Source: a virus. Taken from it: a DNA stretch of 48,885 nucleotides. Where the stretch lies: positions 1-48,885 of the IMG/VR virus record IMGVR_UViG_3300037042_000850; one strand, written 5' to 3'. Shown piece after piece: positions 29,258 through 45,365 of this stretch. The number at the start of each line of letters is the position of its first letter. Positions within the stretch are counted from its first letter, which is position 1. The translations under genes and the position numbers were made by a program. The notes under the pieces are model-generated. The model was not told the DNA's origin. It did not search any database and saw nothing but the letters and a program-made list of their open reading frames with translations.

Positions 29258-32200
29258 TTAGCAGATTCCGTTATTAGTTAATGTTACTTCTGCTGGAGTG
29301 CTTGGACAACATCTTGCACAGAAGGTTACTGATGAAGGTCCTCCTCCTGAAAGTCCTACACTCACACTACCTGGTACTCCTGTACAATCTGTATAATTTA
29401 CTGTTACTATTCCCACTGTAGATTTAATAACAGTGTATGATATACAAGGAGCTACTGTAGTGGTAGTTGAACTAGTTGGAAAACAATTTTCTATTTGTGT
29501 AATTATTCCACCTACTACATTATAAACTATTCCATAGAATGAGCTTTCATTTGTAAAATACCAACCATCAGGAACTACTGTACAATCTGTTAAAGTACTA
29601 GCACCTGCATAAACTCTATGCCCAACAGTAAGAGTTGAATAACTTACTATTATTGTATTTACTACAGTGTTAGGTGGGATAGTATTTAAATAATTAATTG
29701 CATTACAAGCATCTGTTTGACTGCCTGTTGAAACAATAGTTACTGGTATAGATGTTATTGTGTATCCAATAGCAAATTCATCTTGTGATAAATTAATAGG
29801 TCTAACACAAGGTGGAGGACCAGGGGGTACAGTGATGATACCATTACCAGCTAATATACAATCAGTCAATACTATAATTCCAACAAGCGTACAATCTTTT
29901 CCAGTTGATGTAGTACTAGTTGTAGTAGTAGTAGAACCACCTATAGTGGTTGTAGTTGTAGTGGTTGGAGGATCAGGTATTATAGGTCCAACAACAAAAT
30001 CAAAATCATCACAACAACCATTTATTCCTGAATAAAAGAAATTGTTTTCTCCTATATAGAAATTAGGAATATAACTATGGAAAGAGATCCAGCTTTGTGT
30101 ATTAAAATTATATGATACAGACCAAGACTTGTTACAGAAATAATCAGTATCTCCTAATGCAATAACTGTTATAAGTGGTTCACTGCCAACAATAGGTTGT
30201 TCTATATAAAATTCTTTTGTTACATAATTATACTTAACATCAGAATCAATAGGAATATAATCAAGTTTAGTTATAATGATTCTTTCATATCTAGCATCAT
30301 ATACACCATGTAATCCCACTCCATTGAAATTATTATCTATATCAACTCCTGGTATATTAATTGGTTTACCATTCACTATTATTTCTTTACTTGGAAAATA
30401 TTTTAATATTTCAAATGATAAATGGTTTGTAAAGAAGTTATTCATACCTGAAGAGAAAGATGTTAAATCTTTAGCACCATCTCCAGATATTAAGAATACT
30501 TGTCCTCTCTTAGCATCTATAGTTATTTGTCCTTGTGGAATCTTTAATAAGAATTTATTTTGAGCACCTACATATCCAAGATCTGTTTCAGCAAAATCAA
30601 TTGGAGGGGAGCTTCTAAATAAAGAAGGGTTACCCATATAAGCAGCCTGTGGGTTACTTGTATCAATTGTAAGTAATGTATTATATAATAAAGATTTGTT
30701 CTCAAATCTAGCTAGAATAGCTTTGTTTTGAATACCATCTAATGATACAAGATTACCATAATTCTGAGGGAAATCAAAATAAGAAACTGATCTATATGTT
30801 AACCAACTATTGATTCTATTATCAGCATCTGTATTTTGAGAGTCTGAATAGATTGTTCTAAATGGATAATATGTAAAACAGAAATCTTTAGTCCAGTCAG
30901 CTGGTAGATGTGTAAATGTATTTTCTTTATTCTGTTTTGAAAATGTTACATTATAATTGTATGTATTATCATATGCTATAGATACAAATGCTTCTTGTAC
31001 CCAATCATCAGGAATACTAGAACTAACATGTGGCCAGTAATCACCTTCTTTATTATTGAAAGCCTGTCTTAAATCTGTATTATAATCACTCTCACAATAA
31101 AAGTTAGGAATTCCATATGCAAACATATAAAAGTATCCATTATAATATGTTCTATTAGGATTATCTTGACCTGGAAAATTTGGACCATCTCCAGTAGGTC
31201 CAGGTAATTGACTATTTTTACAATCAAAATGGTGTGCTTTAAATGAAATAACATTTGAAAGAACTCCTTGAGGAGTTGTATAATCTTTTAATATAGATCT
31301 AGCAGAGTGCCAATATATTGGATAGGCTATATTACCAATCTCATCATAAAATACATCACTATCATCAGGAGCATTAACTCTATTATCTATAAAGAATGGT
31401 AGTTTAGTTTTAAATGCAAATCTACCTATGAAGGTATCACCACCAAACACTATATTACTTCCTACTGATAAAGGATTAATAGGTGATTGAAATCCTGTAT
31501 CTACTGTAGTGTATGTATATATTTGTCCCCATTGACCTGGGATTATATTTTTTAATGAAGCATAATAAGATACTACACTAAGATCTTGTTCTTTAGCAGG
31601 AGTTGCACATGCAAAACTATCACCAGCAGTTATTCTAGATTTATCTTCAACAATAGGAACACCTCCTACAATCATACTAGGACTATTACTAGGTAATGGT
31701 AATGCTGGTATTGTACCATCAGAACCTGCTGTTCTTAAATAAACAGATGATTCTCTTCTATAATTATTTATAGGAGCATTTCTCAAACCAACTCCTGGTA
31801 CATTAACTGTATCACCAACTGATTCAACACCAGGAATAAGATATCTATTAATATCAAGCATTCTTTGTTTGATACCAGTGACACCATTTGCTGTAATATT
31901 ATTACCAATACCTACATTATAATTATAATCAGCTATTGAGTTATATGAATAAGCATAGTTTCTTCTTGTAATACCATTTATATAAATAGTTAAATATGCT
32001 TGGTATACAGTGAACATTGCTGTTGCATTATATCCAACACTCATTCCTCCAATATCTGATGCACTCTTAAGTGCATCTCTTTGTGCCTCTTCTGTAAGAA
32101 GTTTATATTTAGCATTACTTCTCACCTCAACAAAATGTCCAAGTCCTTTACCAAACATTACATTTTCTAACTTAAGAACATCTCCTAAAAAAGGTTGTCC

Positions 32201-34615
32201 AAAAGATGTTTCAGGAGAATTAAAAACTTGTCTATATGCAAGTTCTGGTTTATTAGTTATTTCTGTTTGTGGAGTTTCTACTTTACAATCATCCACTCTT
32301 ATTCGAGCATTCAATGCTCTTCTATCATAATTACTACCACTAACCTTTGCTACACCTGTATCTTTTATTGTATTTACATAATATGTAGATCCTGTACCAA
32401 ACAAACCACCAGCTACCCATTGTCGTTTAATTCCTTCTACTGGATCATTCCATTCTGCCTTCCATCCAGCACGAGATCCTTTTACATATATATAATAAAT
32501 ATCATAATTAGAAGGTCCCACTGTAGCAATAATTCCAGGAGCAATTGTTTCATGACCACCTGCATTAGTCTTCATTTTATTAAATGGTCCTGTACCTTGA
32601 AATATAGGTCTAGTGATAGAACATAATACATGTTTACCTAATGTATAGAATTTTTGATATGCAACTTTATCATTATTACAATTAGTGTATTCAACTTCTA
32701 TATATGTAGGAATACCAGTAGTGGGCATATTAAATGCTACTATATTAATGTCCCATGGTTCACATATATCTATCCAAGCATTATTAGTTGCATTTAAGAA
32801 AGGATCTCCACTAACATCATTATATGGATAGTTTGGATAGTAATAGGTTTGTTCTTCTCTTTCATAAGAGTTTACATTACGAAGTATCCCTTTAGCTATA
32901 ATAGATTTGTGTACACCTCTATTACCTCTAATTATTTTAAATGATGCTATCTCACGTTTCTCATCATCAGTTAAATTAGAATTATAAATAAGATTTGAAA
33001 TCTGACCAATATCAATTTTAAGACCAATAGGAAATACAGCATCATTCCCCATCACCATTGATGTAGAAGTTGAGAATGGTTTTGATTCGTTTATAGGAGA
33101 AACTAATACATCAGGAAATTTATGATGTCTAATAGGTAATCCAGCAAGATCTCCCCATACATCTACATTACAAGGATATTCTTGATCTGATTCCCAATAA
33201 GCCATTTCACCATATTGATAAGGTCCTTTATAATCAGGAGCTGGAGAATATCCTGGAGATGTTCCAATTACAGAAGCTGTATTATATATCTTCCAATAAG
33301 GACTATAATTTGTACCTTGATTAGGATTACCTATAAAATCTGAATTTGTATCAGGTATATTTGGTTGACTGAATTCATTAAAATTTTGTACTCTACCAGG
33401 AATATGAAAACCATCTGTTTGTTTTCCATTCTTTAATAAGAATACAATTTCAAATGCATACACCTCATCACGTAGATATCCACGTAAGTTTGTAGCATTT
33501 AATTCATCAGCATAGTTTTCATTAGCAGGGATTCTATATGTTTCCCATTGGACATCTATTTGACTAGCTATTGATTGATAGTTAAGTCTACTAATAGATG
33601 TAAGATTATCCCATACAAGTATATCTTGTACAGCTGTTAAATCTTGTGCAATATCATAATACGGAAACTTCTCAAATATATCAGCAATGGTTAATTGTAT
33701 TGCAGTGACATCTTGTCCAGTATATGTAATTTGATCATTATTTTCTTCAATAAAATATGTACCTACTAATTCAACAGATGTAGTGTTGTTGATTGTTTTG
33801 ATTACAGCTATGTTGTAATATTGATATTGTCCTGTAATGTCAAGATCTGTTATATTAAGAACAATAGATTTACTAACAGCAGTGTTAAAATTAACTGTTG
33901 TTAATTGCTCATCTACTATAGGTGTAGGATTTGTTACTGAATAATATGATGTATATGGATTACCTGATGGATCACAATATTGTATAGCAAATTGATATGT
34001 ACCTGATATAAGATCTCCTCCAGAAACAACATCTGTTACTTCTAGTAAAGGAATACTAAAGTTTGGTTGTAATTTAAGTTGATTACAATCTAGTTCATCT
34101 GTATATTCAGCATCACATAGATTAGTACCATATACTATTATTTTTGGAACATTATTAAGATCTAAATATCTTCTTGGATTAAGTCCATCTGTCCAATATA
34201 TTTCTATTGTACAATTTGTAATCTTATGTACTGTCTTGTGTATTGGATTATTAATATTAAAATTAAGACAAGCTGATTCTACTAATGTATGATATATACA
34301 ATCATTGTTATCCATATACCCAATCTGACACATGTCTGTTAGAGGATTCAGTAAAAAGAATACATGCTTGTTTTTCTCATTTATAAAATGAGTACCAATT
34401 AGCAAATAAGATTTTGGAAAGGTGATACATAGATCATTACCCATTTCATTTTGGTAGTTCACTATGTTTCCATCAAAATTTTCAATAGCTGCATTTAAGG
34501 CATATGTAAGTGACCCCTGTTTAACTTGATTAACAGAGCTGTCTAAGTTTAAGCCAGCAGTTGCAGAATTAATATCTTGATTTATATTACCTTTTGAGTT
34601 TTGTTCGTCAGCCAT
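29258..34615 (-). CDS. crAss-type tail tube/'muzzle' protein with adhesin-like C-terminal extension, 1785 aa
   Basis: The N-terminus (INQDINSATAGLNLD, GSLTYALNAAIENFDGN, YQNEMGNDLC, then IYWTDGLNPRRYLDLNN) has the pattern of the large crAss-like tail protein that forms the tail muzzle below the portal and rings. The body to about residue 1540 is beta-rich and Tyr/Asn-rich with no enzyme motifs, as expected for a tail assembly protein. From about residue 1550 the protein changes: Thr-rich linkers (TTTTTTTIGG, STTTTTSTTSTG, TSSTTTTVAP) separate Cys-containing mini-domains such as CISYTVIKSTVG with VNYTDCTG. These are the same building blocks as in the 38-45 kb adhesin genes. It is preceded by a ring-type gene 8 bp away and followed by a coupled 288-residue gene. 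The call as muzzle is inference from length, motif pattern and gene order. Confidence 0.75.
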   Translation of the reverse strand: MADEQNSKGNINQDINSATAGLNLDSSVNQVKQGSLTYALNAAIENFDGNIVNYQNEMGNDLCITFPKSYLLIGTHFINEKNKHVFFLLNPLTDMCQIGYMDNNDCIYHTLVESACLNFNINNPIHKTVHKITNCTIEIYWTDGLNPRRYLDLNNVPKIIVYGTNLCDAEYTDELDCNQLKLQPNFSIPLLEVTDVVSGGDLISGTYQFAIQYCDPSGNPYTSYYSVTNPTPIVDEQLTTVNFNTAVSKSIVLNITDLDITGQYQYYNIAVIKTINNTTSVELVGTYFIEENNDQITYTGQDVTAIQLTIADIFEKFPYYDIAQDLTAVQDILVWDNLTSISRLNYQSIASQIDVQWETYRIPANENYADELNATNLRGYLRDEVYAFEIVFLLKNGKQTDGFHIPGRVQNFNEFSQPNIPDTNSDFIGNPNQGTNYSPYWKIYNTASVIGTSPGYSPAPDYKGPYQYGEMAYWESDQEYPCNVDVWGDLAGLPIRHHKFPDVLVSPINESKPFSTSTSMVMGNDAVFPIGLKIDIGQISNLIYNSNLTDDEKREIASFKIIRGNRGVHKSIIAKGILRNVNSYEREEQTYYYPNYPYNDVSGDPFLNATNNAWIDICEPWDINIVAFNMPTTGIPTYIEVEYTNCNNDKVAYQKFYTLGKHVLCSITRPIFQGTGPFNKMKTNAGGHETIAPGIIATVGPSNYDIYYIYVKGSRAGWKAEWNDPVEGIKRQWVAGGLFGTGSTYYVNTIKDTGVAKVSGSNYDRRALNARIRVDDCKVETPQTEITNKPELAYRQVFNSPETSFGQPFLGDVLKLENVMFGKGLGHFVEVRSNAKYKLLTEEAQRDALKSASDIGGMSVGYNATAMFTVYQAYLTIYINGITRRNYAYSYNSIADYNYNVGIGNNITANGVTGIKQRMLDINRYLIPGVESVGDTVNVPGVGLRNAPINNYRRESSVYLRTAGSDGTIPALPLPSNSPSMIVGGVPIVEDKSRITAGDSFACATPAKEQDLSVVSYYASLKNIIPGQWGQIYTYTTVDTGFQSPINPLSVGSNIVFGGDTFIGRFAFKTKLPFFIDNRVNAPDDSDVFYDEIGNIAYPIYWHSARSILKDYTTPQGVLSNVISFKAHHFDCKNSQLPGPTGDGPNFPGQDNPNRTYYNGYFYMFAYGIPNFYCESDYNTDLRQAFNNKEGDYWPHVSSSIPDDWVQEAFVSIAYDNTYNYNVTFSKQNKENTFTHLPADWTKDFCFTYYPFRTIYSDSQNTDADNRINSWLTYRSVSYFDFPQNYGNLVSLDGIQNKAILARFENKSLLYNTLLTIDTSNPQAAYMGNPSLFRSSPPIDFAETDLGYVGAQNKFLLKIPQGQITIDAKRGQVFLISGDGAKDLTSFSSGMNNFFTNHLSFEILKYFPSKEIIVNGKPINIPGVDIDNNFNGVGLHGVYDARYERIIITKLDYIPIDSDVKYNYVTKEFYIEQPIVGSEPLITVIALGDTDYFCNKSWSVSYNFNTQSWISFHSYIPNFYIGENNFFYSGINGCCDDFDFVVGPIIPDPPTTTTTTTIGGSTTTTTSTTSTGKDCTLVGIIVLTDCILAGNGIITVPPGPPPCVRPINLSQDEFAIGYTITSIPVTIVSTGSQTDACNAINYLNTIPPNTVVNTIIVSYSTLTVGHRVYAGASTLTDCTVVPDGWYFTNESSFYGIVYNVVGGIITQIENCFPTSSTTTTVAPCISYTVIKSTVGIVTVNYTDCTGVPGSVSVGLSGGGPSSVTFCARCCPSTPAEVTLTNNGIC

Positions 34616-34623
34616 TATATATA

Positions 34624-35598
34624 TTAATTATTACGTCTTCTACCAGCTCTATTAGTTCTGTTAGGAAGTTCATACATATTAAATCTATTAAGATCATTCT
34701 TAATCCTTCTTTGTCTTTCCCAAGGGGTTTGTTTTTTCACTTCAATATCAGCCATAACAAAAGCTTCTTCGTAAGCTTGTTTATGATACATCAGTTTTTG
34801 TTGCAACTGATTAAATGTTTCATCATTGGTTTGATTAGTAAGTATTTCAAACACTTTAAATTTAATAAATGCTTCTACATATTCTCTAATACGATAGTTA
34901 TCAGGAATCAATTGATTTCCTATATCATCATACTCTGTTGCATAGAATATTAAATGTACTACACCATTTCTAAAATTAGTTACAAACTTATTATCTCGTA
35001 TATCAAATGAGTCATAACTAGCAGCACCAGGTGTGAACTCATGAACAGGAGGAGCTTGAGATTGAAATTCCCAATTGTTTGTGTATTCCACTCCACAGTT
35101 TTGTCTTGCAGAGATGTTTCCAGGCTTAAGTAAATAGTCATGAGTAAATCCTCTTGCTACACTATTATTTGTCTTGTATACAGCTTGTACTAATACAGGC
35201 ATACATGTACCATCACATTGTGGAACTTGACAACCAGGTCTATTACAAGGAGTTCCTCCAATAGTTAATGGAGCCACTTGTATAGTAGTAGCAGAAGCTG
35301 CTTGTGAATAAAATGAATTAGCTGATTGATATGGAAAGCCTGCTACTTCTGTAGTCATCCATGCTTCTCTAACAGCATAAAAGTTATCAGGAAGTCTAGC
35401 TTGAAAGTCTTCAATAAATAAAACTTCTTCACTTATTACATACGTAGTTCTTCCTAACTTCTTTAGAGCTTTATCTAAGTAAGTAGGAAATAACAAATCG
35501 TCTACAGCACCTGTATCAAAATAAGATTTTAATTCTTCTTTAACAGTTGAGTAGACAGGCTCTGGGCTTATGAAAGCATATTTATAGTAGTACGACAT
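34624..35598 (-). CDS. Ring/tail-stabilisation protein (P22 gp4-like position), 324 aa
   Basis: A 324-residue protein (MSYYYKYAFISPEPVYS) with an N-terminal helical part (YLDKALKKLGRTTYVISEEV), a central beta segment, and a typical connector-like C-terminal part (GVVHLIFYATEYDDIGNQLI, PDNYRIREYVEAFIKFKVFE). In crAss-like phages a protein of this size and layout just before the muzzle gene is a neck ring protein related in role to P22 gp4. A Cys cluster at C118, C123, C128 and C132 (TPCNRPGCQVPQCDGTCMP) suggests a metal knuckle or disulphide loop inserted in the ring. The C-terminus is very basic (NRTNRAGRRRNN), possibly DNA-contacting. It is downstream of the 159-residue gene with a 3-bp gap. 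Confidence 0.72.
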   Translation of the reverse strand: MSYYYKYAFISPEPVYSTVKEELKSYFDTGAVDDLLFPTYLDKALKKLGRTTYVISEEVLFIEDFQARLPDNFYAVREAWMTTEVAGFPYQSANSFYSQAASATTIQVAPLTIGGTPCNRPGCQVPQCDGTCMPVLVQAVYKTNNSVARGFTHDYLLKPGNISARQNCGVEYTNNWEFQSQAPPVHEFTPGAASYDSFDIRDNKFVTNFRNGVVHLIFYATEYDDIGNQLIPDNYRIREYVEAFIKFKVFEILTNQTNDETFNQLQQKLMYHKQAYEEAFVMADIEVKKQTPWERQRRIKNDLNRFNMYELPNRTNRAGRRRNN

Positions 35599-35601
35599 AA
35601 T

Positions 35602-36081
35602 TTATTTTTTCCATTCGTTATAGACATATTGATACTTGTCGTTGGTCTTTAAGTAATGTGATAGAAGTCTTGATGTAAGTCTAGAAGGTTTGAAATACCA
35701 AAGATCAGAATTTTTAAACCTTGCTGTGGTTTTAAACCACATCCAACCAAAAAAATAACCTTCTGTATGATAATTAAAGTTATATATAACCTTTCCTTTC
35801 TCTTTAGTCTTTTGCCAGTCGATTGGTAGATTGACAAACTCTTTACCATCTATATTATTTTTTAGTTTTCTTCTTTTCTTTTTATTGATAGAGAACTCTC
35901 CAAATCCATAAGGAAGCTTTGCTTTCTCACCTGTCTCTAAAATATATTCTTTAAAAGATTCATTATAGGTATATAATATATTTCTCCACTCATCAAACGT
36001 TAATTTTATAGCTGAGTGTTTCTTACAAAACTGATTATAGTTGTCTTTGCTAGAACTTCTCCAATCAATCTTTGTTCTCAT
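35602..36081 (-). CDS. Conserved small late protein of unknown function, 159 aa
   Basis: A basic 159-residue protein (MRTKIDWRSSSKDNYNQF). Its start overlaps the upstream stop by one base (TAATG), so translation is coupled. It contains GEFSINKKKRRKLKNN, an aromatic stretch (NYHTEGYFFGWMWFKTTARF) and a C-terminal FKPSRLTSRLLSHYLK. The charge and aromatic content suggest nucleic-acid or protein binding, but I cannot name a family. Small basic proteins occur between ring genes in crAss-like genomes, so it may be a neck component or assembly factor. That is inference from position only. Confidence 0.62.
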   Translation of the reverse strand: MRTKIDWRSSSKDNYNQFCKKHSAIKLTFDEWRNILYTYNESFKEYILETGEKAKLPYGFGEFSINKKKRRKLKNNIDGKEFVNLPIDWQKTKEKGKVIYNFNYHTEGYFFGWMWFKTTARFKNSDLWYFKPSRLTSRLLSHYLKTNDKYQYVYNEWKK

Positions 36082-36809
36082 TAATTAGTTGGTTTTGAGT
36101 TTGGTGATTGACCATCTATTCCTTCTGCACTAACATCTGTTTTAAGTGTGAAGTAAGTAGATAATAGTTTCTTTGATGTTAATTCAAGGACTTGTTGTTC
36201 TAAGTATCCAGGAAGAGCAAACTCTTTATCTAATGGGTTAATACATATCTGTTCATTTGTATACTCAGGAGATCCACATCCACATTCAGGATACATGATA
36301 TCATTGTGCACATCTTCTTCGAAGAAAGCTACAAATCTAATTGCTTTAAGTAAAGGATTGTTTACATAAAGATATCCATTAGTAATCCAGAAGTATTCTT
36401 CTTTTTTGATTACAGGAAGTTTTAAAAGATTTAGATATCTATTAATAGATATTTCTTTTAGTTTCTTTCCTTTACCACTTAAAGCATTAATAGAATAAAC
36501 TCCTTGTATAACATATTGATAGTTTCCTTCAGATATACGTGGGAGTTTAAATTTAGTTCTAGCTATAGAACAAGGATCAACATAGTTACAACATTCAGAA
36601 ATAGATACCTCTATCATCTCTAAACAAGGGATAGTGGTAAATAGTGTATCAGTTGCCCATAACTTTCTAAGATTGGTTTCTCTCTTGATTAATAACAAGG
36701 AGTTGTTTCTTATCTCAGATGCGATTGCTCTATCTGTAATAAGACTATCTGTAGAAAGTATCTTGTGGACACTTCTAACATCACTGACTAATTTTCTTAA
36801 TGTTGCCAT
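36081..36809 (-). CDS. Neck/ring-type structural protein, 242 aa
   Basis: A 242-residue protein starting MATLRKLVSDVRSVHKILS, with an N-terminal helical region, a Cys-bearing middle (ISECCNYVDPCSIARTKF and ECGCGSPEY), and a C-terminal helix rich in Leu (YLEQQVLELTSKKLLSTYFT) followed by TDVSAEGIDGQSP. The C-terminal layout, acidic run then Leu-rich helix, resembles that of the 243-residue protein at 46664-47395 (CELETYLEDELLDLTVQNLA), suggesting both are ring proteins of the neck. The start lies 2 bp after the phosphoesterase stop. I call it a connector protein with moderate confidence; no direct motif proves it. Confidence 0.65.
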   Translation of the reverse strand: MATLRKLVSDVRSVHKILSTDSLITDRAIASEIRNNSLLLIKRETNLRKLWATDTLFTTIPCLEMIEVSISECCNYVDPCSIARTKFKLPRISEGNYQYVIQGVYSINALSGKGKKLKEISINRYLNLLKLPVIKKEEYFWITNGYLYVNNPLLKAIRFVAFFEEDVHNDIMYPECGCGSPEYTNEQICINPLDKEFALPGYLEQQVLELTSKKLLSTYFTLKTDVSAEGIDGQSPNSKPTN

Positions 36810-36811: not shown

Positions 36812-38035
36812 TTATATTCGAGTTTCAAACTCTGCTATCTTACCTAGATCAAGATCATAGACTAAAGCAAGAGCTGCTCGTACTGAGTGTACGAAGTTAT
36901 TATCTAAGTGCCATCTATCTGTTCCAGATAAGCTAGGCATTTGTTGTATTCTTACACCTTTGACTTCTTTAGCCATATAGTGATGTTTATCTCCTGTATG
37001 CACCTCTCTATATTTAGCATTACCAAATGCTTGACTGTATTGAGGATGTGTTGCAAACAATAATGGTAGGTCTTCTAACTTACAATTACCATGGTGCCAA
37101 CCAATGAATGTATTACCTAATGTTATTCCTTTAATAACTGAATGCTCTCTTATAAATTCTACATCAAGATTATCTTTGAAATATACATCTAATGCATGAG
37201 CTAAATAAAAAGACTTAGTTCTGTCATGATTACCTTGCACAAGAACTACTTGTACAGTGCTAGAATGTTGTCTCAACATATTGATTGTATCTACAAGAAC
37301 AGAGAATCCTAATTCATATTCTGAATGATATTCCATTATAGTATCTTGTGGAGTACCTTGTGTAGTTTGGTTTTGATAGTTATCAGTATGAAAGAAATCA
37401 TTTGATATAGGCAACACTACAGTGTTTACATTATAATTAGCCTCAACTTTGTTAATCAAAGACTGAGCCATATTAAAATATCTCAAAGCTCTGGTTGATG
37501 GATCATTATCACCATCTACTGTTCTCTTAGCTAAATGATAATCAGCTATAGATATTTCTACATCTACATAGTCTTTACTATTAGTACGATCTACTTTAGT
37601 GATTGATATATTATTTGGTTTGTAGTTTTCTAAAAACTTAGCAAAGTCTTCAGGAGAGTAATCTTTTGCTTCTTTTCTTTTTGAAAAGATTGAGGAAGTA
37701 AAACTTCCACTTGGTAACATCTTAGACCAGTAGTTGGTAATGACGTATTTATCTAGGTTTATCTTATGTAGCATAGCTAACTCAAGATCATCTTTAGGTT
37801 CAAATGTACTAGTGACAGTACTTTCTATTGTTCCTTTTTCAACATTTACTTTTCTAATTTCCCCTGTAGAAACATTAAGTTCCATTGGAGATTCATTATC
37901 TTTTTCTCTAAGCTCTCTAAGAAGTTCATTCACTTCGAATTCACTTATTCCTAACTTCTCTGCATAGAACTTTTTACTTTTCTTTTGCGTCAATAACTCT
38001 TCTAATCGATACAATAAGCTTTGATTTTCAGACAT
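36812..38035 (-). CDS. Calcineurin-like metallophosphoesterase, 407 aa
   Basis: The two-metal phosphoesterase motifs are readable in order: D165-Y-H167 (motif I), D213 in PISNDFFHTDN (motif II), G268-N-H-D271 (motif III), H314-H315 in GWHHGN, and the GDKHH segment at 348-352 replacing the usual GHxH. Residues 1-50 (KKFYAEKLGISEFEVNELLRE) look like a small helix-turn-helix. The fold hydrolyses phosphodiester or phosphomonoester bonds with Mn/Fe; Mre11/SbcD-type nucleases belong to it. The gene is first after the promoter-like element at 38118-38143 and leads an operon of neck and tail genes, with 2 bp to the ring-type gene. The substrate is unknown: it could trim DNA ends or concatemers, act on a nucleotide, or have a packaging role. 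All metal-ligand positions seem present, so I expect an active enzyme. Confidence 0.82.
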   Translation of the reverse strand: MSENQSLLYRLEELLTQKKSKKFYAEKLGISEFEVNELLRELREKDNESPMELNVSTGEIRKVNVEKGTIESTVTSTFEPKDDLELAMLHKINLDKYVITNYWSKMLPSGSFTSSIFSKRKEAKDYSPEDFAKFLENYKPNNISITKVDRTNSKDYVDVEISIADYHLAKRTVDGDNDPSTRALRYFNMAQSLINKVEANYNVNTVVLPISNDFFHTDNYQNQTTQGTPQDTIMEYHSEYELGFSVLVDTINMLRQHSSTVQVVLVQGNHDRTKSFYLAHALDVYFKDNLDVEFIREHSVIKGITLGNTFIGWHHGNCKLEDLPLLFATHPQYSQAFGNAKYREVHTGDKHHYMAKEVKGVRIQQMPSLSGTDRWHLDNNFVHSVRAALALVYDLDLGKIAEFETRI

Positions 38036-38143: not shown

Positions 38144-38174
38144 ACAAAAACTCCCCAGACAAATGCCTAGGGAG
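38141..38174 (-). terminator. Rho-independent terminator of the adhesin cassette
   Basis: Minus-strand RNA forms CTCCCTAG / CTGGGGAG (8 pairs, one G-U, loop of 8) followed by TTTTTGTTTT. The G-U pair becomes an A-C mismatch on the plus strand, so the structure is better on the minus transcript. It ends transcription coming from the 285-residue adhesin gene. Confidence 0.8.
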
Positions 38175-38221: not shown

Positions 38222-39079
38222 TTATCCTGGAAAAGGGATTTCACAAGAACCAGCCCATCCACATTCTGGAACTACTGTTGTACCATATAAATATGCATCT
38301 GTTGCATTATTAGGATATGTTGTACTTATTATTGTCCCACAGTGGATTTCATTTAATGGATCACCAGGGAATATAAATTGTATCACTTGTCCTATACTCC
38401 ATGATGTAGAAGCTTTTGGCATATTGTAATTAAATCCAGAAACACATGCTATTATTTCATAATTAATATTTTCTACAGGAGCAGGTGTAGTAGTAGTTGT
38501 AGTAGTTGGTGCAACACAAGCACCACCTAGAATTGTATCTGCTGGATGAGTATCACTTATAAGTGGATTAATAGCACATATTACTTCTGCTGGGCCTTCT
38601 GGAGGAACAATAGCATCAATAATTAAAGTATCACCACAAGGTATATATTGTACTGTATGAGTAGCTCCTACAACAGGATTTATTGTATATGTTGAACACA
38701 ATGGAATTGGAGGTTCTTCAGTTGTAGTAGTAGTAGTTGTTGAAGAACTAGTAGAAGTACTTGTTGAAGTAGATGTACTAGTACTGGTAGATGTACTGGT
38801 AGATGTACTAGTTGATGTGCTTGTAGAACTACTACTTGTAGTGGTGGTTGTAGGAATTAAATCAATTGTTATATCAATGTAATTTGTACATACTCCTACA
38901 GATATCACTCTAATTATAGTTGTTCCATTAGGCACAAGTGATGTTGTGTATCCAGCTATTAAGAGTGAGGCAGATATACCTGTTTCAAATGGAACTGTAT
39001 ACCCATCTGCATTTGAATAAAGATTGAAAGGACCAGCGTCCCCACCAATTGGTAATACCAATGTTATTAATGTTGTCAT
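38222..39079 (-). CDS. Adhesin/tail protein with shared N-terminal domain and Thr linker, 285 aa
   Basis: Residues 1-75 (GGDAGPFNLYSNADGYT, LLIAGYTTSLVPNGTTIIR, SVGVCTNYIDI) form a domain clearly paralogous to the neighbour at 39102-39617 and to the 288-residue tail protein. A long Thr/Ser linker (about 77-119) follows, then a Cys mini-domain (CSTYTINPVVGATHTVQYIP with CGDTLI and EVICA), a second Thr linker, and a C-terminal ~90-residue unit (VENINYEIIACVSGFNYNMP, ending CGWAGSCEIPFPG). No enzyme motif is present. It is last in the adhesin cassette and is followed by a terminator. The probable role is a host-binding decoration or fibre on the virion; the receptor is unknown. Confidence 0.72.
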   Translation of the reverse strand: MTTLITLVLPIGGDAGPFNLYSNADGYTVPFETGISASLLIAGYTTSLVPNGTTIIRVISVGVCTNYIDITIDLIPTTTTTSSSSTSTSTSTSTSTSTSTSTSTSTSTSTSSSTTTTTTTEEPPIPLCSTYTINPVVGATHTVQYIPCGDTLIIDAIVPPEGPAEVICAINPLISDTHPADTILGGACVAPTTTTTTTPAPVENINYEIIACVSGFNYNMPKASTSWSIGQVIQFIFPGDPLNEIHCGTIISTTYPNNATDAYLYGTTVVPECGWAGSCEIPFPG

Positions 39080-39101
39080 ATTTTTTTATTTATTATATTA
39101 T

Positions 39102-39617
39102 TTAAGGAGTTGTTGTGCTAGTAGTAGTTGTTGGTACTACAGTGGTTGTTGTTGTAGTTGTACAAGCTGCTATAATATTCATAAGTTCACTACTAACTGT
39201 TACAGCTATTGCACATAATGAATATGTACAAGAAGAACTAAAACATGTATCACTAACTGTTTGTACTATACCATCACAATCTATATATGTTGCTGTAAAT
39301 GTTGTAGAATAAGGATCACTTTGAAATTCATAGCAAGTATTAGCAATAGTGGTAGAAGTGGTAGTTGTACTACTTGTACTACTAGTTGATGTTGTTGTAC
39401 CATATAAAGGTATGTCAATAAAATTAGTACAATCTCCTACAGATCTTATTCTAATAATTGTTGCATAATCAGGAACAAGTGCAGAAGAATATCCTGCAAG
39501 CAATGATGCTTTGGGAACATTTGTTTCAAATGCTGATGTGTATGCATCAAGATTTGTAAACAGATTAAAAGGACCTGAATCAGTTCCAGCAATTGTTAAT
39601 GTTATTAATACTGTCAT
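39102..39617 (-). CDS. Adhesin/tail protein paralogous to its neighbour, 171 aa
   Basis: A shorter relative of the 285-residue gene downstream. The N-terminal domain is very similar (DSGPFNLFTNLDAYTSAFET, LLAGYSSALVPDYATIIR, SVGDCTNFIDI), followed by a short Thr/Ser linker (about 74-91) and one Cys mini-domain (CYEFQSDPYSTTFTATYIDC, then CSLCAIAVT-like residues). It ends in a Thr-rich tail (TTTTTTVVPTTTTSTTTP), so the protein stops where its paralogue would begin another domain. It looks like a tandem duplicate that either lost a tip domain or never had one. Spacing to both neighbours is about 22 bp. The role is inferred as virion decoration. Confidence 0.7.
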   Translation of the reverse strand: MTVLITLTIAGTDSGPFNLFTNLDAYTSAFETNVPKASLLAGYSSALVPDYATIIRIRSVGDCTNFIDIPLYGTTTSTSSTSSTTTTSTTIANTCYEFQSDPYSTTFTATYIDCDGIVQTVSDTCFSSSCTYSLCAIAVTVSSELMNIIAACTTTTTTTVVPTTTTSTTTP

Positions 39618-39639
39618 ATTATTTTATTTATTGGTTTAT

Positions 39640-40737
39640 TTAATCTTGTGCTATACGTACTGAATATCCTGAACTTTTTATTTCATCTGATGTGTACAAA
39701 TCATCACTATAATAATAACAAGCTTTATAATATGCATTAGTTGAATCAAATTGTGTTGATGTCCAAAAACTTGAAAAATCACCAGGACTATAAAATCCTC
39801 CAGTTGTACCATTACGATTTCCTGCAGGTAATGCTGTAAATCCAGTACTATTTGTTGCTCCAGTGTTTGGTGATGCCCAAAGAGAAGTACCAGTTTGTTT
39901 CATTTTACCACCAGTTACATTTGGAAATCCTATTGGATTTACAGAATAATAATAACACCACCATTCATCATTAGTTGGAATATGATAGCCTGTAGGAGCT
40001 AATCCTCTTGAATCATTAACAGCGTACCAATTGTACAATTTACCATATATAGCATCGTTAGCAGGATCATTGTTAACATGACACCATGCACCAGTAGTTA
40101 AAGCAGCCCATCCAGGATTTGGTCCAAGACCAACACTTACATATTCAGGAATAGTATCACCATTTCTATATGTTGTAACATTAAGATTTGTAGTTTCAAA
40201 TACAGGAACCTGACAAGTTGTAGTGGTTGTTGTAGTTGATCCAGGTACTGCAGTAGTAGTAGAAGTAGTAGTAGAACTTGTGCTTGTAGTAGTAGAACTT
40301 GTGCTTGTAGTGGTTGTAGAAGATGTACTAGTTGAAGTACTAGTTGAACTTGTTGTACTAGTAGATGTACTACTACTACTACTTGTTGTAGTTGTTGTAG
40401 GATCTGGAAGTTGATTAGCATCTCCAGTAAATATACATACTGGAAGTTGACTAGCAGTTCCTGTAAAATCACATATAGGACAACATATATTAAGTTGATT
40501 ATTTATATTGATTATGTCTTCTCCTATAATCATTATGTCCTCAGTGATATTTGTTATATCTTCTGTAAGCGTATTTATACTAGATGTAACATTACATACA
40601 ACAGCATCTAACTTAGCAAGAACTGTATTTAAGTCATCACAAGTTTTTATATCTGTACAAGGAAGTTGAGTGCCATCATATATGAAAGCACTCGTTCCTG
40701 TTATTGTTGTATTATTTATCTGAGAGCAATTAGCCAT
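39640..40737 (-). CDS. Tail/fibre adhesin with FISUMP (Fib_succ_major) tip, 365 aa
   Basis: The modules are clear. Residues 1-47 form a docking unit (AFIYDGTQLPCTDI, LNTVLAKLDAVVC). Residues 52-84 form a heptad-like coiled coil (INTLTEDITNITEDIMIIGE). A duplicated short unit CxFTGxAxQLP covers 89-111. A Thr/Ser linker runs 113-174. Residues 177-365 are a Fibrobacter-succinogenes-major-paralogous (FISUMP) domain, recognised by GKLYNWYAVNDSRGLAPTGY, HIPTNDEWW, SFWTSTQFDSTNAYYKACYY and SSGYSVRIAQD. FISUMP domains have a C-type-lectin/FGE-like fold and are common in Bacteroidetes surface proteins. Here the domain is probably the receptor-binding tip. The coiled coil suggests a trimer. No reverse transcriptase or template repeat is visible to suggest diversity generation. 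Confidence 0.85.
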   Translation of the reverse strand: MANCSQINNTTITGTSAFIYDGTQLPCTDIKTCDDLNTVLAKLDAVVCNVTSSINTLTEDITNITEDIMIIGEDIININNQLNICCPICDFTGTASQLPVCIFTGDANQLPDPTTTTTSSSSSTSTSTTSSTSTSTSTSSTTTTSTSSTTTSTSSTTTSTTTAVPGSTTTTTTTCQVPVFETTNLNVTTYRNGDTIPEYVSVGLGPNPGWAALTTGAWCHVNNDPANDAIYGKLYNWYAVNDSRGLAPTGYHIPTNDEWWCYYYSVNPIGFPNVTGGKMKQTGTSLWASPNTGATNSTGFTALPAGNRNGTTGGFYSPGDFSSFWTSTQFDSTNAYYKACYYYSDDLYTSDEIKSSGYSVRIAQD

Positions 40738-40752
40738 GTTTTATATTTTTAT

Positions 40753-42294
40753 TTATGCTGGGCATATTGGGAAACTAACTATTGTGCTATTAACTATTTC
40801 TACAATTGTATAGATTCCACTATAATCAATTATATAATATCCATCGTTAACTAATCCTATTATACATCCTATTGTAGAAGAATAACATCTATCTCCTATT
40901 CCAGGAATTGGTACATTAAAATATACAAGATAACCAGAACTTATATTACATGTAGTGTTTTGTAAACAAATTTGTGAACTACATGCATCTACTAATGAAC
41001 TAATAAAATCAGGAATTAAATCAGTTCCTGCAATTGGTTGCCAAGGATAATCATGTGTTTCAGCAGCATTACATGTTGTTGTAGTTGTAGTTGTTGGTAA
41101 ACAAGGTCCAACAGATACTAATGTTCCTTGTGAAATATTAGGATAAGGTACAGCACAAAAATCAAAAGGCTTTGGAAAATCTGCAGCTGGTTGAGTTATT
41201 GTTATAGGAGTACCAGTTACACATTCAATATATTCTAAAGTTACTACAGTAGACTGTGGTTCAATAAGAGTAGTATCATAACTCCATTGTATACAAGCAG
41301 TGGTAGTGGTAGTTGTAGTTGGTACTGGACAAGCTCCACCAATACAAGTATCCCCAACGGTAATTGTTACAAGAATATTATCTACAAATCCTTGAGATCC
41401 ACAAACCTTTATAACTTCAAGAGGAGTAATATTTACATCTGTAATAGGAAGATTATCACAATCAGTATATCCTATAACATGAGATGATTTATCATCCGTA
41501 TTGTTAAAAGTTAAACAATCACAAGGAAAACCTGTAGTTGTAGTTGTAGTTGTTGTAGGTATAGCTGTAGTAGTACTAGTAGAAGTACTCGTACTAGTTG
41601 ATGTACTGCTAGAAGTGGTAGTAGTAGTTGGGTCAGCTGTAGTAGTACTAGTTGTAGTTTCCTCAACAGCAGATCCATCAAACATACAATCTATTGCTAA
41701 TGTAGTAGTAGTTGTAGTAGTTGGTTCACAAGGACCTATTGGTGTTACTATAACAGTATCAGGAACTATTAAAGAACTACCTGTTATAATACAAATATTT
41801 GTATATCCTGGTACTAATATAATAGCTTCTTGTAATCCTGTATTACAATCAGTTATAAGTAATGCTATTGAAGTTACTCCTGTATTATTTAATAAGAAAC
41901 TTTGACAAGGTGAAAATATAGTCGTAGTGGTTGTAGTGGTAACATTACAACATACATCTAATTGATTGTTTATATTGATTATGTCACCATTGATAGTTAT
42001 TATTTGTGCAGTAATATTATTAACTTGAATAGTTAATGTATTAATCTGTGTAAGTAAGTTACATATAATCTCATCAATCTTTTGTAATATAACATTAAGT
42101 GTATCACATGGCTCAGCTATTATACAAGATAATGCAAGACCATTATATACAATAGTGCTAGAAGCAGTTAAGTTTGTTGAACATGGATCATTGCTATTAC
42201 AACCACTATTGGAAATAACAGAACTACATCCACAAGGATCATTTATAACTACATCTGTGCAGCAAGGATTTACTGGTAAAAAAGGATATGCCAT
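40753..42294 (-). CDS. Multi-domain Thr-linker adhesin, 513 aa
   Basis: The protein begins with a Cys-rich head (PCCTDVVINDPCGCSS), then a docking unit (TIVYNGLALSC, LNVILQKIDEIICN) and a coiled coil (TQINTLTIQVNNITAQIITI) whose end, INGDIININNQL, is almost the same as in the FISUMP protein. Then come at least four Cys mini-domains separated by runs of Thr: CQSFLLNNTGVTS with DCNTGLQEAIIL, CDCLTFNNTDDKSSHVIGY, CIQWSYDTTLIEPQ, and a unique C-terminal unit (HDYPWQPIAGTDLIPDF, ending VSFPICPA). No catalytic motif is seen. The likely form is an extended trimeric fibre of beads on Thr-rich strings. It sits 15 bp from the FISUMP gene and 12 bp from the collar gene. Confidence 0.75.
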   Translation of the reverse strand: MAYPFLPVNPCCTDVVINDPCGCSSVISNSGCNSNDPCSTNLTASSTIVYNGLALSCIIAEPCDTLNVILQKIDEIICNLLTQINTLTIQVNNITAQIITINGDIININNQLDVCCNVTTTTTTTIFSPCQSFLLNNTGVTSIALLITDCNTGLQEAIILVPGYTNICIITGSSLIVPDTVIVTPIGPCEPTTTTTTTLAIDCMFDGSAVEETTTSTTTADPTTTTTSSSTSTSTSTSTSTTTAIPTTTTTTTTGFPCDCLTFNNTDDKSSHVIGYTDCDNLPITDVNITPLEVIKVCGSQGFVDNILVTITVGDTCIGGACPVPTTTTTTTACIQWSYDTTLIEPQSTVVTLEYIECVTGTPITITQPAADFPKPFDFCAVPYPNISQGTLVSVGPCLPTTTTTTTCNAAETHDYPWQPIAGTDLIPDFISSLVDACSSQICLQNTTCNISSGYLVYFNVPIPGIGDRCYSSTIGCIIGLVNDGYYIIDYSGIYTIVEIVNSTIVSFPICPA

Positions 42295-42306
42295 GTTATT
42301 GATTTA

Positions 42307-43410
42307 TTAAGGTCTGTATTGAATATAGTAACAACCTAATCCAGGTTGATAATTTGGATGTGCTTCTCCTCCTCCTTGTGCTCCTATTGTTATATTTGTT
42401 ACTGCAGTTAATGTAACATTTTCAGCAAGTAATGTAGTAGGATCAGGAATTGATGCTCCAACTGCACCAGTTCCAGAAGCAACAATATCAGCATCCATAA
42501 ATGGTACTGCAGGAGATATAGTGTGTGTATGAGGATTAGGAGATAGAGCAGTGGTAGCTGTAGTACCTGGATGTGCATGAGAAGGTAACTGTCCAACAGT
42601 TAATGTAACATTATTTTGACCTAATGGTGTGTTTAAAGCATAAGTAGGATTACCTAATGCTGGATCAACTTGAGGAGTATATGCTCCTCCACCAGGAACT
42701 ACTGTAACACCAACACCAACTCTACCTCTTTTATCTGGTGTACCATTCAATCCATTACAAAGATATATATTTGCCCAATCACCAATTCCTACTCCTGTAG
42801 AAGAGAAGTTACCTAATGGTCCATAATATTCAACTACTGAAAAAGGAACCATTCTGTTACTAATTGCATTAACTCCACCTGAATGAATAATTAAATAGTT
42901 AGCAATATAAGCATCTAACTCAGCACCATTACTTGAATAGTTTACTTGAAGATTAAGTGCAAGTGCTGCTAAGTTAACTTCTATTTGACATAGTTTATTA
43001 ATAACAGCTTGTACAATAGCATGTGTATCTGAAGATGATGTAACACCTGTCAAACATTCAATTGTATAAGGTCCATTTAATAAAATAAGTTCTCCATCAA
43101 TAACATTAATTTGTTGTTGAAGAGTACAAGCAGATTGTATAAGAGCTTTTGATATATCTACAATAGAAAGATCTCCACAAGTAGGAAGATAAGTTTGTAC
43201 AAGAGTACATACATTTATATTACCTAGATCTATTTTTATTCCTGTACCATCTAATGTAGATGTAAGGAATGTAATCAATGCTTGTTCAACAAATGATAAA
43301 GAATCACCTGTTTGAATTCCTAGGACAGGAACATCTATTCCTGTATATTTAACACATCTGTCAGAGACAATCTCTGTACATCCGTTATAACAATTTGAGC
43401 AATTGGACAT
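42307..43410 (-). CDS. Short tail fibre with phage tail-collar domain, 367 aa
   Basis: The N-terminus MSNCSNCYNGCTEIVSD with CVKYTGIDVPVLGIQTGDS is the Cys-rich docking unit of this cassette. The middle is mostly helical (ALIQSACTLQQQINVIDGEL). The C-terminal ~180 residues form a phage collar/short-tail-fibre domain: YLCNGLNGTPDKRGRVGVG, VTLTVGQLPSHAHP, NPHTHTIS, and HPNYQPGLGCYYIQY. Such domains trimerise and often coordinate metal through His residues; HAH and HTH are both present. It is probably a receptor-binding fibre. The domain order, docking then shaft then collar tip, supports a fibre fixed to the virion by its N-terminus. Confidence 0.85.
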   Translation of the reverse strand: MSNCSNCYNGCTEIVSDRCVKYTGIDVPVLGIQTGDSLSFVEQALITFLTSTLDGTGIKIDLGNINVCTLVQTYLPTCGDLSIVDISKALIQSACTLQQQINVIDGELILLNGPYTIECLTGVTSSSDTHAIVQAVINKLCQIEVNLAALALNLQVNYSSNGAELDAYIANYLIIHSGGVNAISNRMVPFSVVEYYGPLGNFSSTGVGIGDWANIYLCNGLNGTPDKRGRVGVGVTVVPGGGAYTPQVDPALGNPTYALNTPLGQNNVTLTVGQLPSHAHPGTTATTALSPNPHTHTISPAVPFMDADIVASGTGAVGASIPDPTTLLAENVTLTAVTNITIGAQGGGEAHPNYQPGLGCYYIQYRP

Positions 43411-43439
43411 ATTATTTATTTTTTAAAAGGTTTAATATA

Positions 43440-44690
43440 TTATAGTTTTATAAATCTTGCGTATAGAGGATCATTTATAGTGTATCCTAAATAATCTCCC
43501 CAACTAACATATCCAAAAGCAGTATTAACACTACATCCATATGCTGGAAACGTAGAAGGAGAATACCCATGAGCTTCAAATCTTCCATCATAATTCCATA
43601 AAATATTTCCAGCGTTCCAAAGAGGAGATCCATATCCTTGAAAATCTATTCCAGTTTCTCCTGCATTACTTTGATCTGTCCAAAAAGTTGGATCCCAATT
43701 ACCTGGATTAGCAGCATATAAATTTTCTACAGGTAAATAAGGATTACAGTCATAAAAATATTGTACATCAGTTGTTGTTAATCCTCTCCATCCTGGAGGA
43801 GGTAAGTTATTAATAGCCACTTGGTTATATAAACAACCTCTGTATGCCTCAGCTGGATCAAATTGCCAATAAGTATAACAAGGTATACTACTAGTAACAT
43901 AGTTATTCCATTCTGTTATATCAGCAGCATACACTATAGGAGTACCATCAGTTAAAACAGTAAGATTTGAATTCTCAGTTGTTATTATTCTACCACAAAC
44001 AGTTACTGAAGGTAAAACCATAGCAGTAGTAGTAGTTGTTGTGGTAGGTGCAGCAGTTGTTGTAGAACTAGTAGTTGTACTTGTAGAACTAGAGCTTGTA
44101 GTAGTAGTAGTTGGAGGTAGAGTGGTACTAGTTGTCGTTGTAGTACACTCATCTGTATTTATCACTACAATATTTGGTGATACATTAAGAGATACTATTG
44201 TACTTATACAAATACTAGATAGTCCTTGTAAAACTATTGTTTGTGGTTCTCCTGTATTACAATTACCAATCAAGAATGATTCTGCAGAATTTGCAGTGTT
44301 ATATAATATAAATGATTGACAACCCATCATTGCAGTGGTTGTACTTGTTGTTGTAGGATTAGCTACTATATCGATCTCACAAGGAATTTCTAAACAAGGT
44401 TCTGGTGTATTACATCTACTAACACAACCTGCTGTAATACGTATAACTCTGCTAGCTATCATAGCTACAGAGTATTCATGCACATAATTAGGATTACAAT
44501 ACTTATGAGTTAGTATCCTTTTATATGCTATTAATTGAAGTATCTCACCAGCAGGTATAGGTTGATTCAACATATATGAAATGTTGTTATACAAACTATT
44601 ACCAAGCTCTGCTAACTTGCAATTTATTTTTTTAAGTAAATCAGGAATGTTAGAACACTCAGGGCAATTTGTTAATCTTGGTGATAACAT
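43440..44690 (-). CDS. Adhesin with crAss-type N-terminal anchor and diverged FISUMP-like tip, 416 aa
   Basis: Residues 1-95 (PDLLKKINCKLAELGNSLYN, QPIPAGEILQLIAYKRIL, KYCNPNYVHEYS, IASRVIRITAGCVSRC) form a helical domain I associate with crAss-like tail proteins. A Thr linker follows, then a Cys mini-domain at about 124-182 (CQSFILYNTANSAESF, GNCNTGEPQTIVL), a second Thr/Ser linker (183-222), and a C-terminal ~190-residue domain. That last part (YRGCLYNQVAINNLPPPGWR, TDVQYFYDCNPY, FWTDQSNAGETGIDFQGYG) has the layout of a diverged FISUMP domain, matching the tip of the 365-residue gene in order but not closely in sequence. The probable role is receptor binding. It starts 13 bp after the micro-protein gene. 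Confidence 0.75.
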   Translation of the reverse strand: MLSPRLTNCPECSNIPDLLKKINCKLAELGNSLYNNISYMLNQPIPAGEILQLIAYKRILTHKYCNPNYVHEYSVAMIASRVIRITAGCVSRCNTPEPCLEIPCEIDIVANPTTTSTTTAMMGCQSFILYNTANSAESFLIGNCNTGEPQTIVLQGLSSICISTIVSLNVSPNIVVINTDECTTTTTSTTLPPTTTTTSSSSTSTTTSSTTTAAPTTTTTTTAMVLPSVTVCGRIITTENSNLTVLTDGTPIVYAADITEWNNYVTSSIPCYTYWQFDPAEAYRGCLYNQVAINNLPPPGWRGLTTTDVQYFYDCNPYLPVENLYAANPGNWDPTFWTDQSNAGETGIDFQGYGSPLWNAGNILWNYDGRFEAHGYSPSTFPAYGCSVNTAFGYVSWGDYLGYTINDPLYARFIKL

Positions 44691-44703: not shown

Positions 44704-44799
44704 TTATTTATTTACTTTAGCAGCACATGCTGCACACACTCCGTTTGTCAATTGACAACCGCACCCTACATTAGCTCCACAGCTTGAACATTGTGCCAT
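44704..44799 (-). CDS. 31-residue Cys-rich micro-protein
   Basis: A tiny ORF reading MAQCSSCGANVGCGC then QLTNGVCAACAAKVNK and a TAA stop. Six Cys are arranged as CxxC, CxC and CxxC, like a zinc knuckle. Its start lies 2 bp after the stop of the 187-residue gene and it ends 13 bp before the next ATG, so it fills an otherwise unexplained gap in the operon with normal spacing. I recall near-identical micro-ORFs in other crAss-like genomes at this place, but I cannot verify that here. It may be a structural zinc-binding peptide or a small capsid/neck factor. Confidence 0.72.
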   Translation of the reverse strand: MAQCSSCGANVGCGCQLTNGVCAACAAKVNK

Positions 44800-44801: not shown

Positions 44802-45365
44802 TTAATAAAAGTTTATTTGGTAGTTGTTACCTGAACAACCACAGTTGGATTTAAGAAAACTGTTTAACATATTATCTGCCTGAGCATATAATGTATTTGA
44901 TTCAAATTCTGCACAGTTATTAGCTGCTGCAATAGCTCCTTGAATAAAGAAGTTGATTGTATTTAATGTTACGCTAGATTGAGTTTTAAGGGCCCTATCG
45001 CACTCCATCATATTTAATTGAAGAAAAGCATTGTCGAACTTCTCTTGAAGTCTCTCAACACGTAATATTGTTCTCTCTACATAATTTGCATATGCAGGAG
45101 CAACTGAATATTTTAATCTATACACTCCATCAGGAAGAGGTTGATTACAACCAATTTCTGTTATCCCTAAATTAGATGATGTAAATACATTGATTTCATT
45201 AGGAACAAAAGGTAATATCTTTGTTCCAAATCCTGGTATTTCAATCTCAATAGATGGTGCTGAGACCACTGGAGGATTGGTAGGATATACAGAAGCATCT
45301 GCAACACCAATTGTAAGTACACTATAAGTAGGAACTACTAATATATCTAATTGTAAGTTTGCCAT
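44802..45365 (-). CDS. Conserved crAss-type structural protein, 187 aa
   Basis: Residues 1-95 are beta-rich (MANLQLDILVVPTYSVLTIG, IEIEIPGFGTKILPFVPNEI, PDGVYRLKYSV). Residues 95-160 are helical with LRVERLQEKFDNAFLQLNMM followed by ECDRALKTQ. The end is Cys-bearing (SNCGCSGNNYQINFY). The ECDRALKTQ-type segment appears familiar from crAss-like late genes, where this protein precedes the Cys-rich micro-protein. It is probably a head, neck or tail-completion protein; no enzyme motif is present. It follows a strong hairpin at 45380-45421, so its expression may be lower than that of the 393-residue gene. Confidence 0.66.
   Translation of the reverse strand: MANLQLDILVVPTYSVLTIGVADASVYPTNPPVVSAPSIEIEIPGFGTKILPFVPNEINVFTSSNLGITEIGCNQPLPDGVYRLKYSVAPAYANYVERTILRVERLQEKFDNAFLQLNMMECDRALKTQSSVTLNTINFFIQGAIAAANNCAEFESNTLYAQADNMLNSFLKSNCGCSGNNYQINFY

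Follow-up and report, generated by a model that had tools for sequence, protein, structure and literature searches.

A probable tail-fibre locus of a crAss-like phage in which tips appear to be swapped by recombination on conserved docks

The window analyzed here is the whole of positions 1-48,885 of the IMG/VR record IMGVR_UViG_3300037042_000850, and the cassette under study occupies 38222-44690. Exactly as the preliminary description had it, this region holds six consecutive genes, here g6 to g1. All are on the minus strand, and their products are 416, 367, 513, 365, 171 and 285 aa long in that order. The product of g6 (43440..44690) begins with an N-terminal dock (aa 1-112), followed by the run TTTSTTT, a cysteine mini-domain of family F0 (120-182), a 40-aa Thr/Ser linker and the tip F17 (223-416), which hhalign relates weakly to the FISUMP family (87% over 82 columns). 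The next gene, g5 (42307..43410), codes for a collar-type fibre with a conserved N-terminal half and a tail-collar-like C-terminal domain (E=2.5e-13); it matches the tail families PHROG 8763 and 8469, has a homologue in nearly all loci, and contains neither Thr/Ser linker nor mini-domain. In g4 (40753..42294) a long-helix dock (aa 1-118) is followed by seven threonines (T7), F0, a second T7, a long linker, F1, T7, F4, T7 and the tip F6 (408-513), while g3 (39640..40737) combines a dock homologous to that of g4 (aa 1-113) with a 61-aa Thr/Ser linker and a FISUMP tip (175-365; PF09603, E=8.7e-29). The last two genes have docks homologous to each other: g2 (39102..39617) consists of its dock (aa 1-73), a linker, a mini-domain F1 (91-152) and a terminal Thr/Ser stub, and g1 (38222..39079) of its dock (aa 1-76), a 44-aa linker, a mini-domain F1 (121-191), T7 and the tip F5 (199-285). 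AlphaFold models predict a coiled-coil-like helix for g4 residues 63-117 (pLDDT about 90, modeled on residues 1-197) and, for g1, three modules at pLDDT of about 85-95 joined by linkers below 50, with a dock that is small, beta-rich and not a coiled coil. Of the preliminary description, the coiled coils are predicted for g4, whose dock has a homologue in g3, but not for g1 and g2, its Thr/Ser linkers hold for five of the six genes, and its varied tips are borne out by g3 and g5, whereas the supposedly unique tip of g6 is weakly FISUMP-like.

The cysteine modules of about 60-70 residues reported earlier are real: the window codes for seven (three in g4 and a single one in each of g6, g2, g1 and the C-terminus of the muzzle protein), and their families cluster as one superfamily in profile comparisons. 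Foldseek searches of the PDB with both models returned nothing below E=0.3, so that the F0 and F1 mini-domains and the F5 tip match no solved fold and their folds give no demonstration of receptor binding; against BFVD, good matches were obtained only to proteins of unknown function from the marine virus NIOZ-UU157. We know of no function for FISUMP, and its presence together with a collar-type domain is at most suggestive of receptor binding or degradation.

Immediately before g6 lie a 31-aa ORF with six cysteines (44704..44799, minus strand), found in 77 of 81 loci, and, directly upstream, the gene for the conserved structural protein hd187 (44802..45365, minus strand; PHROG 31752), with homologues in the Cellulophaga phage phi4:1 (gp056, L083:29130-29642, detected by MS/MS), in a Leptolyngbya phage and among the structural genes of csAssE-Sib. 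No match was detected between hd187 and the crAss001 hub proteins in the PDB, nor by hhalign between hd243 and ring protein 2; we regard hd187 as a candidate for the role of fibre hub. At the other end, an intrinsic-terminator-like hairpin (38151..38174, minus strand) closes the cassette past g1 and is followed, on the same strand, by a conserved exonuclease gene (36812..38035; phrog_704; 77-92% identity in relatives) and the genes for ring protein 2 (36081..36809; PF25702; profile match to crAss001 gp40, E=3.2e-12), ring protein 1 (34624..35598; PF24228; profile match to gp43, E=1.6e-7) and the muzzle, the gatekeeper of the tail tip (29258..34615; PF25731 crAss_MUZ, E=3.6e-32). The cassette had been placed between head genes and a neck operon, which is roughly right, its actual neighbors being head-side genes on one side and the exonuclease, then the ring and muzzle genes, on the other. 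Based on the detection by Pfam of the muzzle and both ring proteins in the window, and of the crass major capsid protein (PF23898, E=2e-27) in the relative L012, the window itself stopping short of that gene, we assign this phage to the crassviruses (crAss-like phages); for its relatives phi4:1 and Fpv1, the listed classification goes no further than genera of Caudoviricetes. The muzzle and ring proteins are homologous by Pfam to those of PhicrAss001, a phage whose fibres dock on the tail by short N-termini, such as residues 1-26 of gp22 (PMC10172136).

In phi4:1 (Lightbulbvirus) the same locus, between structural and ring genes, holds a cluster of fibre and pectate-lyase genes, gp046-gp052, whose products MS/MS places in the virion. 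A profile of the g4 dock aligns with gp047 over residues 2-54 (E=6.7e-9), and the g3 dock is likewise homologous to gp047; the g3/g4 docks also match Leptolyngbya phage genes at the same place, one of them annotated as tail fiber. For the g1/g2 dock, searches of isolated phages returned no homologue. In light of the homology of the g3/g4 docks to an MS/MS-detected protein of the same locus, absence of the cassette proteins from virions appears unlikely. We infer that all six are located on the tail. It is improbable that they are instead head fibres or capsid decorations, of an Ig-like kind sticking to mucus or other surfaces and swapped for reasons unrelated to receptors. Two kinds of head fibre are indeed present in crAss001 (PMC10172136), and the upstream gene hd393, for which no relatives were found in bacterial and archaeal genomes, ends in a conserved Thr/Ser tail; however, gp047 adjoins the gp046 tail fibre, the Leptolyngbya annotation likewise points to the tail, the cassette adjoins the genes for ring 1, ring 2 and the muzzle, and its modules recur on the muzzle protein, which sits at the tip of the tail.

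The muzzle, with homologues in phi4:1 (gp042, MS/MS) and csAssE-Sib, ends in this window in a C-terminal extension (29261..29965, minus strand) comprising a T7 linker, an F6-like module, a short Thr/Ser linker and a cysteine mini-domain, and muzzle modules found in nine phages are F6-like, F7 or FISUMP. As these are the same exchangeable modules that the fibres bear, the muzzle C-terminus is a further dock. Hitherto regarded as a gatekeeper, the muzzle in this group also carries the exchangeable modules of the fibres, and both this and the seven-threonine joint go beyond the preliminary description.

That joint is the commonest junction: runs of exactly seven threonines occur in 315 cases under 237 DNA spellings, indicating that the constraint acts on the protein, and adjacent synonymous threonine codons are random (0.395 observed, 0.395 expected). 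The near-identical linker DNA that had been reported from many genes was not recovered: linkers of different genes in the window align at about 70-78%, their longest exact match is 21 nt, and no 27-mer is common to two different-slot linkers of one genome. Accordingly, near-identical linker DNA was rejected as a driver of recombination, the conservation being at the protein level. The exact seven-threonine joint amounts to a natural standard connector and poses a concrete question, namely why seven.

We then examined 80 related IMG/VR loci. Across the 60 dereplicated loci the N-terminal docks of g6, g4, g3, g2 and g1 are conserved, as are the flanks, and everything past the linkers is variable. 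Among pairs of loci with hd187 genes more than 95% identical in DNA, the same module order was found in only 8/49 for g6, 1/19 for g4, 1/16 for g3, 4/21 for g2 and 4/13 for g1. When homology was followed from the start codon, it ended in a linker in fractions of 0.88, 0.75, 0.52, 0.59 and 0.91 for g6, g4, g3, g2 and g1, against an expected 0.18-0.26, a test that leans towards linkers since alignments may stop there partly through varying linker length. The family and tree tests are free of this bias. On the flank tree the g6 tips change 32 times compared with a mean of 33.8 for shuffled labels, i.e. almost as often as if labels were shuffled, and module families with more than one member number 39, of which 18 are found on at least two dock types and seven on at least three. 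Module shuffling at linkers exceeds chance in the breakpoint, architecture and tree tests; as linker boundaries may be old joins later spread by dock recombination, crossovers inside the linkers themselves are not proven by this. Individual exchanges include one between g4 and g3 with 95.8% DNA identity over 237 nt, in loci whose hd187 genes are only 72% identical, and one between g4 and g6 with 97% over 231 nt, both ending in linkers; in L009 and L011, about 94-97% identical nearby, the g4 modules are F0-F1-F3 and F4-F4-F5, respectively. The comparison across related phages that had been set beforehand gave the predicted conserved flanks and tip exchange at Thr/Ser linkers, strict vertical inheritance without such exchange was looked for and not found, and the claim that the locus is a modular array of attachment proteins whose tips are exchanged is supported by the close-pair, breakpoint, family and tree tests.

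As the relatives are all metagenome contigs and the linkers are repetitive, the shuffling could conceivably reflect phages mis-joined at linkers during assembly. We give this very little credence: different-slot linker pairs rarely have a common 27-mer (20/20,239) or 31-mer (4/17,948), identical architectures turn up in different metagenomes (for example, L056/L063, L064/L065, L040/L042 and L014/L015), and many common modules differ by 3-20% in DNA with frames staying open, implying that many of the joins are old. It is similarly far-fetched that the diversity stems from a diversity-generating retroelement (DGR) acting on lectin-like tips, as in the epsilon and zeta crAss-like phages, whose DGRs mutate tail-fibre domains (PMC11054128, PMC12386605). 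Nine related contigs, 74-119 kb long and possibly incomplete, yielded no RVT_1 (PF00078) reverse transcriptase in a search whose control worked, which argues against a DGR; moreover, the tips here vary by replacement of whole modules, unlike the templated point mutation of those fibres.

Taken together, the sequences show that docks are conserved and tips exchanged, that homology breaks at linkers, and that modules are shared across slots and with the muzzle. We consider it highly probable that this is a crAss-like phage tail-fibre/adhesin locus with tips swapped by recombination on conserved docks. We propose that g6, g4, g3, g2 and g1 would each form a fibre fixed to the tail by its N-terminal dock and bearing one to seven C-terminal modules on Thr/Ser linkers, with some docks of relatives carrying none, that g5 would be a collar-type fibre devoid of linkers, and that the same modules would be grafted on the muzzle C-terminus. 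Because the junction is standard at the protein level, being in most cases a run of seven threonines or a long Thr/Ser stretch that finishes with such a run, any tip could be placed behind any dock and still fold independently, and recombination among related phages could consequently swap, add, duplicate or remove tips while docks and flanks stay unchanged. The tips presumably bind host surfaces, and their swapping may alter host range or adsorption. A different emphasis, which we deem rather unlikely, is that, instead of selecting hosts, the tips serve mainly to attach to abiotic or biofilm matrix or to escape surface defenses of the host, adsorption blocking among them; several tips per virion, frequent docks with no modules (g6 in 21/60, g2 in 18/34) and the beta-propeller (NHL) form of some tips would fit generic stickiness, nothing direct speaks against it, and sequence alone does not separate it from receptor choice.

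The proposed fibre locus displays two traits of modular phage receptor-binding proteins, namely horizontal exchange of the C-terminal domain and a conserved N-terminal anchor, the docks, with those of g3/g4 homologous to the gp047 N-terminus. In Klebsiella and E. coli phages, receptor-binding proteins likewise join a conserved N-terminal anchor to an exchanged, horizontally transferred C-terminal specificity domain; there the anchor goes with the phage group, the domains are those of depolymerases or tailspikes, and the exchange points have conserved DNA motifs close by (PMC6872550, PMC10408124); the cassette differs in having several docks served by one tip pool, a protein-level threonine junction and several modules per fibre. 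The phi4:1 cluster gp046-gp052, in contrast to the cassette, codes for long proteins with one short Thr/Ser run (in gp046), no mini-domains found and tips that include pectate lyases, and the text of the crAss001 account (PMC10172136) contains no word that starts with "threonine" or "adhesin", its passages on the tail and fibres that were consulted mentioning neither exchange of modules nor grafts at the C-terminus of the muzzle. A limited literature search found no description of threonine-linked phage adhesins. Modular fibres being already known, it is the multi-slot, threonine-jointed form that looks new. If our reading is correct, this would be an environmental crassvirus lineage with combinatorial attachment, in which a seven-threonine joint, possibly glycosylated, lets a common pool of tip families, dozens in number, be exchanged among five linker-bearing fibre docks and the muzzle, with empty docks as acceptors, as a recombination-based counterpart of DGRs; this wider picture we offer tentatively, at somewhat below even confidence.

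Host recognition by crassviruses is poorly known, and few of them grow in culture. The locus provides tip families and docks ready to hand, together with natural swaps on near-identical backgrounds (e.g. L009/L011), with which the link of tip to host surface can be tested one tip at a time. Searches across IMG/VR recovered few relatives of the tips: for the g6 tip there were two, both on contigs already in the set (L024 and L025), and for the FISUMP tip three, of which one is borne by g3 of a relative and the remaining two belong to other phages.

The six consecutive genes claimed in the preliminary description are indeed present as six minus-strand ORFs at exactly 38222-44690, transcribed in the order g6, g5, g4, g3, g2, g1. 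Immediately upstream of this cassette is a six-cysteine ORF of 31 aa (window 44704-44799; found in 77 of 81 loci), followed outwards by hd187, hd393, hd243 and hd323, while downstream, past a terminator-like hairpin (38151-38174), lie the exonuclease, ring protein 2, the flank gene r159, ring protein 1 and the muzzle, the tail-tip gatekeeper. Based on the Pfam identification of both rings and the muzzle in the window, the profile matches of its ring proteins to PhicrAss001 gp40 and gp43, and the presence in the relative L012, ahead of hd323, of a terminase, a portal, an unnamed gene and a Crass_capsid major capsid protein, we class the phage as a crassvirus by gene content. The head-to-ring region of the 48,885-base window has no near DNA match in the phage collection. 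At its C-terminus (window 45458-45523), hd393 has a bare Thr/Ser tail that is conserved: the window's copy reads TTTTTTSSAPASTTTTTSTLIP, nearly all relatives have a similar one, and no module follows it in any.

Five of the six proteins consist of a conserved N-terminal dock followed by folded modules alternating with Thr/Ser linkers; g5 has no such linkers and ends in a tail-collar-type domain. AlphaFold predicts a long helix (pLDDT about 90) and a five-stranded mini-domain (about 77) in g4 residues 1-197, the first 65 residues falling below 50, and in g1 three confidently predicted modules with low-confidence linkers between them. A structure search against the PDB found no solved-fold match for modules of families F0, F1 (both Cys mini-domains) and F5, and we know of no function for the FISUMP domain. 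The g3 dock is homologous to that of g4, and the g1 dock to that of g2; the latter pair resembles the N-terminus of the post-muzzle gene (window 28390-29256; hhalign, 95%). This gene also matches the C-terminal part of a structural PHROG of 1,783 positions.

We then compared the locus across 80 relatives retrieved with hd393 (78-97% identical to that of the window), reduced to 60 loci, window included, by removing near-duplicates of the same architecture. The flanking gene order is kept and module architectures differ even between relatives with near-identical hd187: in pairs with hd187 above 95% DNA identity, architecture is shared in 8/49 for g6, 1/19 for g4, 1/16 for g3, 4/21 for g2 and 4/13 for g1. 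Cassette length ranges from 3.8 to 8.7 kb (36 complete cases, window among them), and docks lacking any module are common (21/60 for g6, 18/34 for g2). The 329 non-dock modules group into 60 families, of which 39 have at least two members; 18 of these 39 occur on at least two dock types and seven on at least three. Vertical signal in the architectures of g6, g4 and g3 is only faint, since changes on a tree built from three flank genes nearly equal those for shuffled labels (32 versus 33.8, 26 versus 28.1 and 21 versus 22.1, respectively).

DNA homology extending from the start codon ends inside a linker in fractions of 0.88 (g6), 0.75 (g4), 0.52 (g3), 0.59 (g2) and 0.91 (g1), against 0.18-0.26 expected under uniform breaks (p <=0.0007 for each gene; linker counted plus or minus 2 aa, one partner per gene), although this test leans towards linkers because their lengths vary (mean relative length difference 0.30 versus 0.03 for modules); the family and tree tests are independent of this bias. 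In L009 and L011, whose sequences around the cassette share 94-97% identity, g4 differs in its tips, starting at the residue-104 linker and continuing to the end of the gene. Matches between different gene positions include L011 g4 and L037 g3 (95.8% DNA identity across 237 nt, against only 72% for hd187), L024 g4 and L051 g6 (97% over 231 nt, with threonine runs at both ends) and L046 g3 and L073 g1 (96%), which show recent transfers at the DNA level, in one direction or the other. Crossover inside linkers is not proven by the location of the breaks, because conserved docks or next-gene starts could recombine and spread older joins.

The near-identical linker DNA that had been proposed did not hold up: within one genome, a 21-mer is common to the two linkers in 5 of 1,062 different-slot linker pairs, and a 27-mer in none. 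Pure threonine runs peak sharply at exactly seven, with 315 runs of this length compared with 48, 36 and one for lengths of six, eight and nine. As these 315 runs have 237 different DNA spellings (mean identity 79%) and adjacent Thr codons in linkers are chosen at random, the constraint on this fixed run length acts at the protein level. Across all loci, ACC for Thr is four times commoner inside linkers (0.118) than outside (0.030).

Modules of the cassette also occur on the muzzle, tying them to a known tail-tip protein. In the window, the C-terminal end of the muzzle has seven threonines leading into an F6-like module, which a short Thr/Ser linker joins to a Cys mini-domain. The muzzle core is conserved in eight relatives (57-75% identity) and the ends differ, carrying an F6-like module with either the mini-domain or another small module, a module at the F6-like position with F7, or a FISUMP domain whose identity to the FISUMP tips of the cassette reaches 50%. 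At the same locus, Cellulophaga phage phi4:1 encodes gp046-gp052, whose annotation as virion proteins comes from MS/MS; residues 2-54 of gp047 are matched by the g4 dock profile (E=6.7e-9), as are two Leptolyngbya phage genes at their N-termini, one of them annotated as a tail fiber. Flavobacterium phage Fpv1 likewise has an exonuclease ahead of its ring-2 homologue, but there the region is short. We infer that all six proteins reside on the tail, and that the tips may bind receptors and affect host range.

Receptor-binding proteins of modular build, in which the anchor is conserved and the C-terminus exchanged, have been well described (PMC6872550, PMC10408124), and other crAss-like phages diversify fibres by DGRs (PMC11054128, PMC12386605). 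As far as our searches reach, what appears to be new is a single tip pool that serves the muzzle as well as several docks, themselves of at least two unrelated kinds, together with the seven-threonine joint and how fast the tips turn over.

Among individual tips, that of L004 g6 (5366-6997) consists of NHL beta-propeller repeats (Pfam; family F21, also in L020 and L054). Outside these relatives, the phages L089 (3899-5068) and L090 (3911-4360) have FISUMP domains that share 55-60% identity with the g3 tip, in genes whose covered portions contain no linkers of this kind; a weak homologue of hd243 is present in L090 as well. The best structural matches to the g1 model (window 38222-39079) are function-unknown proteins of virus NIOZ-UU157, and hence a similar system may exist in that virus.
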